NCBI RefSeq assembly: GCF_017939705.1
Contig: NZ_JAGKSQ010000009.1
Coordinates: 1-64,000, forward strand
DNA: 64,000 nucleotides
Direction of reading: 5' to 3'
From: Halalkalibacter suaedae
GTDB lineage: Bacteria; Bacillota; Bacilli; Bacillales; Bacillaceae_D
Below, one piece after another: positions 167 through 28,400 of this stretch. Each line of letters starts with the position of its first letter. Position 1 is the first letter of the stretch. The notes below the pieces were generated by a model. The model did no database searches and had not been told where the DNA came from. It worked only from the letters and a program-made list of their open reading frames with translations. The position numbers were made by a program, and so were the translations under genes.

Positions 167-282
167 GTCTGGTGGCGATAGCGAAGAGGTCACACCCGTT
201 CCCATGCCGAACACGGTCGTTAAGCTCTTCAGCGCCGATGGTAGTTGGGGGCTTCCCCCTGTGAGAGTAGGACGTTGCCGGG
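167..282 (+). rRNA. 5S ribosomal RNA, copy 1
   Basis: This is a full-length 5S rRNA gene of about 116 nt. The GGTGGCGATAGCGAAGAGG block and the CCGATGGTAGTTGGGGG block are both characteristic, and the two ends can pair as helix I. It follows 23S in the same rRNA operon. Bases 166-281 are identical to the second 5S copy at 9080-9195. Ends are approximate to a base or two. Confidence 0.97.
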
Positions 283-289
283 CAATTAA

Positions 290-318
290 GCACAATCCAT
301 TTGGATTGTGCTTTTTTT
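290..318 (+). terminator. Rho-independent terminator of the rRNA operon
   Basis: A perfect 10-bp stem (GCACAATCCA / TGGATTGTGC) with a 2-nt loop, or a slightly shorter stem with a 4-nt loop, is followed directly by a run of seven T. It lies 8 bp after the 5S gene, so no tRNA genes follow this 5S copy. Confidence 0.93.
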
Positions 319-426
319 ATTTGTATAAAAGTGTGTAGGGTAGCTGTAAACTTTAGATGGAGTATACTTTCCTAAATGACTCTTTCTTTTTTACACAATT
401 ATATGGACTTAATCTAAAAAATTAAA

Positions 427-1300
427 TTATGATCCAAATTAGCACTTTTATGAGCGGCATACCGGATAGGCAATCAGAAAGAGAATCTAAATTAACAAAA
501 AACCAGTTATATACTTGTGGTCAGCTGAATTATGAGCACCAATTATCATATTTATGATCTTTAGCACTAAGTAAGCAGTCAAAATAGAATTTAAATTAAC
601 AAAAAACCAGATATATGATCGGGATCAGCTGAATTATGAACCGGATCCGATAAGTTATGAGCGTAAACTAGTACGTTATGAGCCAAATTAGAAGATTTAT
701 GATCCTAAGCACTAGGTAGGCAATTTAAATGAGAGAATCTAAATTAATAAAAAACCAATTATATGATCGGGATCAGCTGAATTATGATCCGGATCCGACA
801 AGTTATGAGCGTAAACTAGTACGTTATGAGCCAAATTAGAAGATTTATGATCCTAAGCACTAGGTAGGCAATTTAAATGAGAGAATCTAAATTAATAAAA
901 AACCTATTATATGATCGGGATCAGTTGAATTATTAGTCCAACCCGACAAGTTATGAGCATAAACTAATACCTTATGAGCCAAATTATCATATTTATGATC
1001 TTTAGCACTAAGTAAGCAGTCAAAAATAGGATATAAATTAACAAAGAACCAGATATATGATCGGGATCAGCTGAATTATGAACCGGATCCGACAAGTTAT
1101 GAGCGTAAAGCAGTACGTTATGAGCCAAATTAGAAGATTTATGATCCTAAGCACTAAGTAAGCAGTCAAAAATAGAATCTAAATTAACAAAAAACCAGAT
1201 ATATGATCGGGATCAGCTGAATTATGATCCGGATCCGACAAGTTATGAGCGTAAACTAGTACGTTATGATCCAAACTAGCACTATTATGATCCTAAGTCA
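427..1300. repeat. Hierarchical tandem array: 21-bp TTATGA units in ~147-bp blocks
   Basis: About 0.9 kb between the rRNA terminator and the moaC terminator holds no credible gene. TTATGA(G/T)C-like motifs recur at exactly 21-bp steps in blocks of five. Block starts are near 613, 761, 909, 1055 and 1201; for example, motifs lie at 782, 803, 824 and 845, and at 1222, 1243, 1264 and 1285. A spacer of 62-64 bp separates the last motif of one block from the first of the next, giving a 146-148 bp higher-order period. A degenerate block with three motifs (about 509, 530, 552) and a pair at 427 and 448 precede it. The first motif of each full block reads ATATGATCG. Inverted repeats such as GGATCA...TGATCC occur inside each block. 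Function is unknown. The flanks (319-426 and 1301-1342) show nothing. Confidence 0.9.
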
Positions 1301-1342
1301 CCGGCACCTGCTAACAAACCACCTCTCCAAAGATAAAAAAGG

Positions 1343-1374
1343 ACAAGTAGCATAATCGCTACTTGTGTTTTTTT
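1343..1374 (-). terminator. Rho-independent terminator of moaB-mobA-moaC
   Basis: A 9-bp perfect stem (ACAAGTAGC / GCTACTTGT) with a 6-nt loop is flanked by T runs on both sides. Its main role is to end the leftward Moco operon, because moaC stops at its edge. It could also stop transcription arriving from the repeat array. Confidence 0.9.
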
Positions 1375-1852
1375 ACCTCTGGAAATCCCCGTTTTTTCCA
1401 CCAGTTTTTTTAATTAACATCGTTTCTTTAATAACCATACTCTTATCAACGGCTTTACACATATCATAGAAGGTTAGTGCAGCTGCGGATACTGCTGTGA
1501 GGGCTTCCATTTCAACTCCGGTGTTCCCTTTGCATGTTACGGAGGCTTCAATAACTAATTCATAATCATGGTCGAGTGTGACGTAATTAAATGAGAAATC
1601 GACTCCTTGTAGTTGAATGGGGTGACACATTGGAATAATGTCAGGTGTTTTTTTGGCAGCCATAATCCCAGCTATTTGAGCAACTTGAATGGGGTCTCCT
1701 TTTTTAATTTCTTGTTTCTGAATTGCTGTATATAAAGTAGGGCTCAGTTGAATTTTGGCTTGTGCGATGGCGGTTCGGGTTGTCTCATTTTTTTCAGAGA
1801 TATCAACCATTTTTGGTCGACCTTCTTGATTGTAGTGTGTAAATTCACTCAT
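1373..1852 (-). CDS. moaC: Cyclic pyranopterin monophosphate synthase MoaC
   Basis: MoaC converts the MoaA product (3',8-cyclo-GTP) to cyclic pyranopterin monophosphate, the first committed step of molybdenum-cofactor synthesis in the cytosol. At 159 aa it has normal length. Family signatures are visible: the MCHPI motif (about residues 75-79), the [13 protein letters not shown] segment, and [10 protein letters not shown] near residue 131, which carries the catalytic lysine and aspartate region. It is the last gene of the leftward operon moaB-mobA-moaC. Its ATG overlaps the mobA stop by 8 bp and has a GAGG-type RBS, so translation is probably coupled. The partner moaA is not in the window and must be encoded elsewhere. 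Confidence 0.95.
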
Positions 1853-9080: not shown

Positions 9081-9196
9081 GTCTGGTGGCGATAGCGAAG
9101 AGGTCACACCCGTTCCCATGCCGAACACGGTCGTTAAGCTCTTCAGCGCCGATGGTAGTTGGGGGCTTCCCCCTGTGAGAGTAGGACGTTGCCGGT
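9081..9196 (+). rRNA. 5S ribosomal RNA, copy 2 (orphan)
   Basis: It is identical over the whole gene (9080-9195) to copy 1 at 166-281, but both flanks differ, and there is no 16S or 23S gene before it. It has its own promoter and runs on to an initiator tRNA gene 162 bp downstream and then a terminator. Ends are approximate. Confidence 0.96.
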
Positions 9197-9358
9197 CTGT
9201 TTTTCTTTTAATGTTTTACAACGATTAAGTGTGGAGCAACAAGCATCACATCGTCGAAACAACTACGAGTAACATGGACACATGATTGCATCTTGAAATA
9301 CTTGTAGAGGAGATGTCCAGCATCTTCGAAAACGCATCATCAATATCCTTCATAGCGA

Positions 9359-9432
<74 letters not shown>

Positions 9433-25850: not shown

Positions 25851-28400
25851 ATGAAAATTACGAAAAAAATCTCGATGGTACTACTAGCTACAGTGATAAC
25901 TGCGGGTTCCCTTGAGCTTCCAGTTCTAGCTACTAGTCACGTTTCTGGTCAGGAGCATTTAAAACCTTCAAAGCCACAAGGGACTACTGAGGAAATAAAT
26001 ACAAGCCCTCCTGAAGCCGAGCAGCTATTTTCAGCAGTCGATCATGGAGGAAATGCTAATGATTCAATTCTAAAGAATATAGCTGCGACCAATCCATTTA
26101 TAAGTATTTTAGATGGTTTTGACCAAGTCTGGTCTATGAATCAACCAGCTTGGAGAGATGGGACAGCGTTAACTGTACCTAATGAATATGATAAGGTTGC
26201 TAAATATGGTGACGGACCTACCGTTTATTTTGATGGATATAAAAATGATAAGACAAAGGTCGTAGCGGATAAGAAAACATATGCTAATGAAGAAATTAGA
26301 GATCCAAAGACTTGGAAAGCTAATATTAAGTATGTAGAAGAAGTTACTCAAAACAGAACGGATGAAGAGGAGTTAGCGGCCTATTATGATGACCAAAGAG
26401 ATAAGATCTACAGTATGATGGAAGCTTACGGGCCTTTAGCGAACACCTATGTAGATATCGTTAACCCGATCACAAATGTTGTCAGATCACCAGAGGATAT
26501 GAATGTAGTATTGGAAGAAGCGACTGTTGAGGATCAGAGCCAAGGAATGGGAATGGGGGGACAATGGCAGGAAACAGAACTAGCAGATGCTTTGGATTTA
26601 GTTGCTTTAATTAGATTTAGGAATCCTTCTTCCTCAAATCCTTCTAAGTACTTTTTCTCATCTCCAAGACCTTACAGAATAAATTCAAATGGAGAAGTGA
26701 AAGAAATTGTTGATGAGAATGGTTTAGCTAAATGGTCCACAATTGGTAGTGGTGAAAGTAAAGTAGAAGCATTACCTTCAGGCGGCAAAAAAGAAACGGG
26801 AGAAAGACATCACCAACAATACGAAACGAATGTAAAAGTAATTCCTGCGTTAGAATATGTAAAAAGAAAAGCGGAAGATGGGCGAGGGAAAGATGGAGCT
26901 TTTCCAAGCGGACATACAAGTGCAGCTTATTTGTCAACATTCGGATTTGCATACGCAACACCTGAAAGATATGCTGAATTTTTAACTAGAGCAGCTCAAA
27001 TGGGAGAAAATAGAATAGTGACTGGGATGCACTCTCCACTTGATGTTATAGGAGCAAGAATACAATCAACTGCAATGACTGCCTATGCATACAACCTTGC
27101 AGAAAACCAAGAGGTATTGGATAAGGCTTACAAAAATGCTGGAAAGGTATTCGGTGAATTAGCTGAAGCAAAAGGAATGAGCTTGTATGAATATGCACAT
27201 ACGGTAACAGAGGATTATACGTTTGAAAGTGCATACGATGAACAAAAATGGGAAGATCATGAAGCCAATAAAGCATTCTACCGAGAGAAACTTACATACG
27301 GATTACCTCAAACGGGTGAAAAAGGTTTAGACCCTGTAGTACCTAAAGGTGCTGAAGTCTTATTGGAAACTCGTCAGCCTTATTTGACTGACAATCAACG
27401 TAGAGAAGTATTGTATACGACAGAAATTGAATCAGGCTACCCTGTAATAGACGAATCAAATGGTTGGGGAAGAATTGATTTGGTAACAGCAGCTGATGGA
27501 TATGGTGCGTTTTTAAGCAATGTAACAGTGAACATGGATGCTTCAAAAGGAAGATTTAATGCCCATGATTGGTGGAGAAATGATATAACTGGCAGTGGCA
27601 TGCTTACCAAGCAAGGGACAGGTACACTTACATTAACAGGAAGTAATAGTTATTCAGGAGGTACATTGCTGCAAGGAGGAACGTTAGAAGCGACTTCTAC
27701 GACTGCTTTTGGTGAAGGCGACCTTTATGTAGAAAATGGCACAGTTTTAGTTAATGTAGAAGAACCTTTGAATGTAGATGGTAACTTTACAATGGAAGCT
27801 GGAAGCCTAGATATTGCAATGGATAATGACCCAACTCAATTAAGTGTAGATGGACTAGTTTACCTTGATGGTGGGGATCTGAATTTGGATCTTGCAAATT
27901 ACGAAATAGACAAGTCTGCGAATATTACTTTAATGACTGCTGATAAGGTAACAGGTACATTTGATAAGGTAACTGCAGATGATTACGACGTAACTGTCAC
28001 TTATGACAATAATAGTGTTGTTGCACATGTCACAGCAATCGATACTTCTGATCCAGTTTCACCGAATCCAGAAGTTCCTGGAAGCCCTGTTGATCCAGAA
28101 AGTCCAGAAAACCCAGAAAACCCTGTTGATCCAGAAAGTCCAGAAAATCCAGAAAATCCCGTTAACCCGGAAGATTCTGAAGATCGGGAAAACCCAGTCG
28201 GTCCAAAAGCTCCCGAGGACACAAAAGCTCCAAAGAAACAAACTAGTGTTGACAAAACGCAACAGCCTGTAACGAACGATGGGCAAAAACTACCGGAAAC
28301 GGCTACTACGCATTATCAGTACTTATTAGCAGGGTTTTTACTCTTCTTAAGTGGTACGTTCTTCCTCTTCATGAGAAAAAGAAAAGCATTAAGTAAATAA
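25851..28400 (+). CDS. Cell-wall-anchored PAP2-type acid phosphatase with PATR repeat
   Basis: An 849-aa secreted enzyme. A signal peptide (KKISMVLLATVITAGSLELPVLA) leads. The phosphatase domain has all three PAP2/class A acid phosphatase motifs: K266-x6-R273-P274, PSGHT at 352-356, and R388-x5-H394-x3-D398. A passenger-associated/autotransporter beta-strand repeat follows (GTGTLTLTGSNSYSGGT, about residue 590), which is usual in Gram-negative passengers. A Pro/Glu-rich wall-spanning stretch includes two 12-residue VDPESPENPENP repeats. The C-terminus is a sortase signal: LPETA, hydrophobic helix, RKRK tail. ATG 25851 is preferred over ATG 25842 or TTG 25815 for RBS spacing. It probably releases phosphate at the cell surface under PhoP control. 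Confidence 0.88.
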   Translation: MKITKKISMVLLATVITAGSLELPVLATSHVSGQEHLKPSKPQGTTEEINTSPPEAEQLFSAVDHGGNANDSILKNIAATNPFISILDGFDQVWSMNQPAWRDGTALTVPNEYDKVAKYGDGPTVYFDGYKNDKTKVVADKKTYANEEIRDPKTWKANIKYVEEVTQNRTDEEELAAYYDDQRDKIYSMMEAYGPLANTYVDIVNPITNVVRSPEDMNVVLEEATVEDQSQGMGMGGQWQETELADALDLVALIRFRNPSSSNPSKYFFSSPRPYRINSNGEVKEIVDENGLAKWSTIGSGESKVEALPSGGKKETGERHHQQYETNVKVIPALEYVKRKAEDGRGKDGAFPSGHTSAAYLSTFGFAYATPERYAEFLTRAAQMGENRIVTGMHSPLDVIGARIQSTAMTAYAYNLAENQEVLDKAYKNAGKVFGELAEAKGMSLYEYAHTVTEDYTFESAYDEQKWEDHEANKAFYREKLTYGLPQTGEKGLDPVVPKGAEVLLETRQPYLTDNQRREVLYTTEIESGYPVIDESNGWGRIDLVTAADGYGAFLSNVTVNMDASKGRFNAHDWWRNDITGSGMLTKQGTGTLTLTGSNSYSGGTLLQGGTLEATSTTAFGEGDLYVENGTVLVNVEEPLNVDGNFTMEAGSLDIAMDNDPTQLSVDGLVYLDGGDLNLDLANYEIDKSANITLMTADKVTGTFDKVTADDYDVTVTYDNNSVVAHVTAIDTSDPVSPNPEVPGSPVDPESPENPENPVDPESPENPENPVNPEDSEDRENPVGPKAPEDTKAPKKQTSVDKTQQPVTNDGQKLPETATTHYQYLLAGFLLFLSGTFFLFMRKRKALSK
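28089..28160 (+). repeat. Two tandem 36-bp repeats in the wall-spanning region
   Basis: Two direct 36-bp copies (28089-28124 and 28125-28160) differ by a few third-position changes and encode the 12-residue unit VDPESPENPENP. Imperfect copies flank them. Pro-rich linkers of this kind span peptidoglycan in LPXTG proteins and vary in copy number by slippage. Confidence 0.85.

Follow-up and report, generated by a model that had tools for sequence, protein, structure and literature searches.

What kind of element is the phased array of TTATGA-type words that lies between an rRNA operon and moaC in Halalkalibacter suaedae, and does it occur elsewhere? The window analysed here is a stretch of 64,000 nucleotides (NZ_JAGKSQ010000009.1, positions 1-64,000), and its genome, coded G000, is called the own genome below. 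The array has 29 recognisable TTATGA(G/T)C-type units, 21 of them exact TTATGAKC, starting at 427, 448, 530, 552, 613-697, 761-845, 909-993, 1055-1139 and 1201-1285 (Table 1). Twenty-five of the 29 form five blocks of five with an internal step of exactly 21 bp, and the distances from one block start to the next are 148, 148, 146 and 146 bp. This confirms the original prediction of about 28 motifs, with five blocks of five at 21-bp steps and a block spacing of 146-148 bp. The degenerate block that it placed at 509-552 is indeed short, with a 22-bp step from 530 to 552, and its proposal that the array gains and loses units one by one is supported. An independent search with Tandem Repeats Finder recovers the array at 530-1297, with a period of 148, 5.2 copies and a score of 1099. 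All 13 exact TTATGAKC pairs at 21 bp on the plus strand of the window lie inside the array; there are none on that strand beyond it and none in 100 dinucleotide-preserving shuffles. Since 147 is 7 x 21, the window motifs keep one helix face from block to block, and for the window array the prediction that every motif lies on the same side of the helix is correct, give or take about 3 bp. It fails between blocks at the many own loci where the block period is about 238 bp.

Table 1. Features of the window array and its neighbours (positions in the window).
Feature	Position	Strand	Basis
5S rRNA gene, left neighbour, end of rRNA operon	168..283	+	Rfam RF00001, 95 bits
Intrinsic terminator of rRNA operon, between 5S and array	288..319	+	hairpin plus T-run, read directly
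First two units (427, 448), remainder of another block	427..468	+	motif positions
Shortened block: degenerate unit 509, units 530 and 552 (22-bp step)	509..572	+	motif positions
Block 1, five units at 21 bp	613..717	+	motif positions
Block 2, five units at 21 bp	761..865	+	motif positions
Block 3, five units at 21 bp; unit 2 is degenerate (TTATTAGT)	909..1013	+	motif positions
Block 4, five units at 21 bp	1055..1159	+	motif positions
Block 5, five units at 21 bp	1201..1305	+	motif positions
moaC intrinsic terminator, points into array 3' end; hairpin 37 bp from last unit	1334..1366	-	
moaC, right neighbour, opposite to motif strand, convergent	1373..1852	-	ORF; Pfam MoaC matched by one scanned flanking protein

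The pattern TTATGAKC-N13-TTATGAKC has 446 matches in the H. suaedae genome and its reversed control has none, and a run of five TTATGA at 21-bp steps is found 91 times. The stretches fetched around the matches, together with the window, make up 390 kb of own DNA and cover all 202 of the genome-wide four-in-a-row matches. They contain arrays at 38 loci, each with one to six blocks, and a looser setting adds weaker arrays beyond the 38, such as L035:6764. Five units is the prevailing block size (103 of 131 blocks; 12 have six, one has seven, nine have four and six have three), where counts vary with the mismatch setting and some of the six-unit blocks as well as the seven-unit block include a weak extra leading unit. 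Most often the block period is about 238 bp; periods of 147, 187 and about 290-330 bp also occur, at other loci. The arrays are dispersed over 38 mostly intergenic loci, and these are uneven along the chromosome, with 24 of the 38 within C11:675-829 kb. An outcome in which the array occurs nowhere else and decays at random is excluded as far as sequence can tell, the own genome and relatives having been searched. Arrays lie in or near the ends of several draft contigs (C5 and C11 in the own genome; C41, C117 and C136 in the congener G001), so the assemblies may undercount them. Among ten proteins sampled from C11:660-829 kb, three gave partial S-layer-like matches under the curated cut-off, and a SecA homologue is encoded near the 531-kb locus of the same contig.

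The spacing of the units is almost invariant. Nearest-neighbour distances between own TTATGAKC words (14-28 bp, n=448) are 21 bp in 445 cases, 20 bp in two and 22 bp in one. Between blocks, 20 of 54 spacers at own loci differ from the mode of their locus, and indels per base differ within blocks versus between blocks (Fisher p=0.0014). A de novo scan of the fetched own DNA that is blind to the word finds 91 clusters at lag 21 and zero or one at each other lag from 14 to 30.

Conservation is concentrated in the word. At the 29 own loci with at least two five-unit blocks, 26 of 1160 motif columns are polymorphic within a locus as against 317 of 1508 spacer columns (p=2e-55), and in the window's five blocks 4 of 40 motif columns vary as against 25 of 65 spacer columns (p=0.0015). 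The blocks had first been picked by motif; in a repeat with 333 middle units chosen only via their neighbours, 97% retain a complete TTATGA and 100% have C at position 8. The arrays have a fixed spacing, a preferred number of units and selection on the word and not on the spacers. The strict 21-bp phase and the selection on the motif lend support to the suggestion that this is an operator- or iteron-like array. Identity of the 13-bp spacers between own loci is 44% in unit order versus 36.5% when deranged, and by this better match in unit order the own blocks are old homologues. Local duplication certainly happens, with spacers 84% alike among the blocks of one own locus and a variable number of blocks, but a neutral local tandem duplication without function is barely credible as the origin of the whole pattern, given roughly tenfold less change in motif than in spacer columns and a 21-bp phase kept over old divergence.

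Two familiar kinds of repeat are rejected at this point. As 21 bp corresponds to seven codons, a coding repeat was considered; the spacers between blocks break the frame, and all eight motif bases are strongly conserved without a three-base pattern. The original prediction had found no ORF, which is almost right, as one TTG frame overlaps the array (964-1128, minus strand; ORFs of at least 50 aa) and at 54 aa is the longest frame over it. CRISPR arrays have identical repeats of about 24-48 bp with unique spacers, and here an 8-bp word alternates with 13-bp spacers that are homologous between loci.

A fixed-size docking array is the simplest account of the spacing, the unit number and the selection. 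On balance, the array is probably a DNA-level assembly site for several copies of a candidate sequence-specific protein on one helix face. Each block would present five copies of the 8-bp word (TTATGAGC, with GATC variants) exactly two helical turns apart, and several protein molecules of one kind would line up along a single helix face, forming a complex of fixed size. From the sequence pattern we infer that such a protein would bind the array cooperatively. More speculatively, the complex might act as a roadblock or an anchor just beyond gene ends.

The suspicion that such arrays occur in other Bacillaceae is borne out by named matches in Sutcliffiella, Sporosarcina, Lysinibacillus and Pallidibacillus. 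With H. suaedae itself included in each count, exact TTATGAGC pairs match in 8 of 198 genomes, some through one pair alone; four TTATGA in a row match in 11 of 397 genomes of the order, of which two (G067 and G109) prove to be 7-bp microsatellites and a third (G274) is uncertain; and TTATGANC in three copies matches in 4 of 398 genomes of the class. The microsatellites, (TTATGAA)n in two genomes of one genus, mimic the array pattern. Named carriers account for five of ten stretches (Sutcliffiella halmapala, Sporosarcina aquimarina, S. luteola, Lysinibacillus telephonicus and Pallidibacillus pasinlerensis), and several of the remaining five are simple or coding-like repeats. The number of units is unfixed in some lineages, reaching 23 in G232, which matches Sutcliffiella halmapala, and 28 in G065.

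Within the genus, a three-unit match with at most three mismatches finds arrays in 2 of 13 genomes, the own genome and the congener G001. The word changes coherently between these species, since the G001 core is TTATGATC in place of TTATGAGC; single exact TTATGATC pairs also occur in the congeners G004 and G010. The seven G001 arrays fetched have five units in four cases and six in three. A five-unit TTACTATCC array at 21 bp, met by chance, lies at a contig end of the same genome (L132:3144-3252). A strict de novo scan of 400 kb samples of G001 and G012 found no arrays.

A different word at the same spacing is found in family f19, whose genomes G212 and G188 carry AGTATT arrays at exactly 21 bp. 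Among the 19 with at least four tolerant units, 15 have six units, three have seven and one has five. One array is orthologous in the two genomes (8 kb, 87% identity) and keeps AGTATT in five of six units in both, while the spacers and the bases preceding AGTATT have changed. AGTATT is TTATGA reversed and came to light because the reversed-pattern control matched family f19; the mirror relation is treated as chance, because an unbiased scan found other cores. That scan, of a 400 kb sample of G188, added GACCGAA and GCAACTAT to CGAGTATT as cores of this genome; it gave three lag-21 clusters, of which L193 looks coding. With the settings of the scan loosened, lags that are multiples of three become more frequent too, as expected of coding repeats. 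AGTATT-type arrays seem to be abundant beyond the order as well. In family f49, genome G619 has 84 matches to the reversed control, with CNAGTATT in three copies at 21 bp. Genome G264 has, besides TTATGACA arrays, a long CAGTTATC array at 21 bp and a TTTTGCACAAC array (L063:4161-4520 and L061:4048-4170), which makes several cores in one genome.

By these comparisons, the 21-bp architecture is common to the lineages and the core word is not. This turnover counts in part against a protein-docking array, since the arrays of one genome can carry different core words (TTATGATC and TTACTATCC in G001, three cores in G188), which one protein per genome would not explain. The patchy spread within the genus and the unfixed unit number of some lineages also count against it.

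The main rival is a short mobile or selfish element, in which the units are docking sites for a transposase-like enzyme supplied in trans, the array is left at the landing site, and tandem amplification followed in this genome. One G001 array lies between two flagellar rod genes identified by Pfam, which we take to be flhO and flhP; the gap there is 30 bp in H. suaedae, and in G004 and G010 it holds a terminator and hairpin repeats and no array. Such presence and absence would suit a mobile element, as would the burst to 38 own loci with arrays in one of 12 congeners, and the up to six tandem modules per locus. The ends of Tn7- and Mu-type elements likewise carry several sites of about 20-22 bp. 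Against it, the homology starts and ends at different points at different loci (by eye), no inverted partner end was noticed in the fetched loci, and one array is orthologous in two species, G212 and G188. A precise insertion at terminators is rejected, since the distance from array to terminator varies from 12 to 104 bp in 18 arrays. The exact three-unit pattern has no match in viral contigs, and blastn gave none for two own arrays against plasmids or for the window array against phages. At the flagellar rod genes no clean target duplication is seen in a comparison at 76-78% identity. We regard a mobile element as possible and rather doubtful. The hairpin repeat at this gap (GAGCGAAGCC...AAGCCTTT...) is itself REP-like and lies near terminators in three congeners (L116, L117, L083), with three copies in G010.

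The arrays share their habit with dispersed repeats of other bacteria. REP/BIME, BOX and bcr repeats are intergenic, near gene ends or terminators, present at many loci and patchy across species, and so are the arrays. They differ in that those families are conserved long or palindromic sequences, whereas here a short direct repeat is phased and the spacers are nearly unconserved. The core is non-palindromic and the conserved part is a phased 8-mer, in place of the conserved palindromic unit of REP/BIME.

The arrays are polar with respect to their neighbours. Read from the motif strand, the right-hand gene runs toward the array in 40 of 53 own and f19 arrays (p=0.0003), namely in 26 of 35 own arrays, three of the 38 loci being left out because each has no neighbour on one side, and in 14 of 18 f19 arrays, counted here with at least three exact units. 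Neighbour orientation is unbiased in G001 (++2, --2, +-2, -+1) and in the other lineages (++9, --6, +-6, -+1, where a few rows are one locus twice). Of 65 arrays, 19 have a terminator directed at their 3' end and four have one directed at their 5' end, as compared with 1-3% for random stretches, and arrays with a terminator pointing into the 3' end would stay outside transcripts. No neighbour gene is common to the arrays in Pfam scans of the flanking proteins: among the best 25 of 70 families no family occurs in more than 2 of 58 own flanking proteins, and among the best 25 of 81 families none occurs in more than 3 of 49 from other genomes. This result, and the lack of an orientation bias outside own and f19 arrays, weigh against a protein-docking array. 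The own count took 58 of 67 flanking proteins; eight of the other nine were in NCBIfam scans, with two weak S-layer-like matches.

The strand bias relative to the right-hand gene could also point to an RNA element, that is, to repeated sites in a transcript, and an inverted repeat GGCTGG...CCAGCC lies between blocks in 18 of 36 representative own modules. A structured RNA is rejected, as RNAalifold on 18 own modules yields little beyond the GGCTGG/CCAGCC stem on either strand. A block of the window array folds no better than shuffles on the plus strand (z -0.5) and modestly better on the minus strand (z -2.1), and Rfam gives no match in window 320-1400 up to E=1. Pairing of the two flanks of an array into a hairpin is rejected as well, the duplex energies of own flank pairs being no better than those of mismatched pairs. 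A terminator stands between gene and array for 13 of 25 genes on the right and 5 of 14 on the left, and an exact 21-bp phase is a feature of the double helix. An RNA element is accordingly very unlikely.

Strand composition changes across the arrays. Of 80 arrays, drawn from eight groups, 72 show a drop in GC skew from the 5' to the 3' flank (80-bp flanks), as do 584 of 1160 random positions. Because arrays of one genome are related, this count and those of gene orientation and terminators are not fully independent. The window array conforms, going from +0.14 to -0.28. The switch is present with parallel, convergent and divergent neighbours, and intergenic controls show little or none of it in the own genome and f19; the G001 controls are few. 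The test leaves out L053 and L054, which have the same sequences as L079 and L074, L058 and L059, which have no flank, and also L069-L072, L075, L078, L080, L111, L112 and the later samples. If RNA polymerase or replication forks often paused at the bound array from both sides, more of the template would be unpaired on both approaches, which could lead to such a strand-composition switch. A roadblock or anchor formed on the docking array would fit both the terminators into its 3' end and the skew switch, provided that polymerases or forks pause there. The switch could also be selected sequence and not a trace of polymerase pausing.

The link to rRNA operons implied by the window array holds for a small part of the family. 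Rfam scans of the fetched own DNA find three 5S genes, at window 168-283, window 9082-9197 and L041:8742-8829, the last cut by the contig end, and an array lies just beyond the first and the third. The second array on an rRNA side is C5:55878-56616 (L041:7878-8829 corresponds to C5:55878-56829). Its last unit is 126 bp from the 5S gene, and the rRNA operon reads into the 3' end of the array from behind a terminator sequence identical to that of the window. The same scans find no rRNA in the fetched DNA beside the remaining 36 of the 38 own loci. Two of 38 may be more than chance, in a draft assembly whose rRNA operons are mostly broken off. The region after moaC has neither rRNA nor an array in the ten congeners with at least 1.28 kb there; G003 offers just 185 bp after moaC and G012 has no moaC match. 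In G188, a 5S gene is followed at a distance of about 670 bp by a five-unit GACCGAA array (L175:7590-7700), which, by eye, comes directly after a 5S-like tail and terminator, a setting much like that of the window array with another core. The 5S gene at window 9082-9197 leads to a tRNA-Met gene instead, and this stretch (window 9082-9432) has no array.

Polar barriers such as Tus/Ter, RTP and the TTF-I Sal boxes are repeated protein sites downstream of rRNA genes or at termini. The arrays resemble them as candidate protein sites placed past the ends of genes, with an rRNA operon in front of two own arrays and one of G188, and a barrier would also fit the skew switch. They differ in that 36 of 38 own loci have no rRNA neighbour in the fetched DNA.

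Among plasmids and secondary chromosomes, iterons (P1, R6K, Vibrio RctB sites) are short direct repeats at about 21-22 bp, often five to seven in number and on one helix face. The arrays are like them in being direct repeats about two helical turns apart that are few and fixed in number in the own genome and f19, and unfixed in some lineages. They differ in lying at 38 chromosomal loci, in having no initiator family that recurs among the flanking proteins (best 25 of 70 and 25 of 81 families), and in a core word that changes between and within lineages; a lone initiator gene could stand among the families below those best 25. A role in replication or partition control, in which iteron-like arrays on the chromosome titrate an initiator or partition protein or fix its position, would draw on this likeness, and on the fact that the C-rich strand is the one that carries TTATGAGC at 31 of 38 own loci, where strand composition is confounded with gene direction. 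Arrays at 38 loci of one genome, with none found in most congeners, argue against it. A cluster of DnaA boxes (consensus TTATCCACA) is rejected, since TTATGA differs from the consensus at two central bases, and among the middle units the frequencies of A at position 6 and of C at position 8 are both 1.00 to two decimals, which does not agree with a core of the TTATNCACA type. A search for a dif-like site for mapping gave no match with 3 mismatches to a dif consensus. Replication or partition control is an improbable explanation overall. The sites parS, Noc sites, KOPS and matS number tens per genome and are uneven along the chromosome, like the arrays; they are single, short and often palindromic, whereas the arrays are phased and of fixed size.

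Returning to the proposed protein-docking arrays, it is conceivable, and put forward tentatively, that they are a new class of bacterial chromosomal element defined by its architecture. In such a class, an intergenic word would recur at exactly 21 bp, often in five or six units, the core would turn over between lineages and between arrays, and the spacing, the number and the polar composition switch would persist, with a rapidly re-tuned family of DNA-binding proteins building complexes of fixed size. A literature search of limited depth found no earlier description of such arrays.

If the arrays do dock a protein, the H. suaedae genome would offer some 130 groups, each of about five sites, to an as yet unnamed protein, and related systems with other core words would be present in several Bacillales families. 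A single array could then serve as bait for the protein. The coherent change of core between sister species (GAGC versus GATC) would amount to a natural experiment on the joint change of a protein and hundreds of its sites. The composition switch gives a hint that something physical, such as polymerase pausing, happens at each array.

Elsewhere in the window, a short tandem repeat at 28085-28163 has a 36-bp period with a 9-bp substructure (ATCCAGAAA) and is possibly coding.
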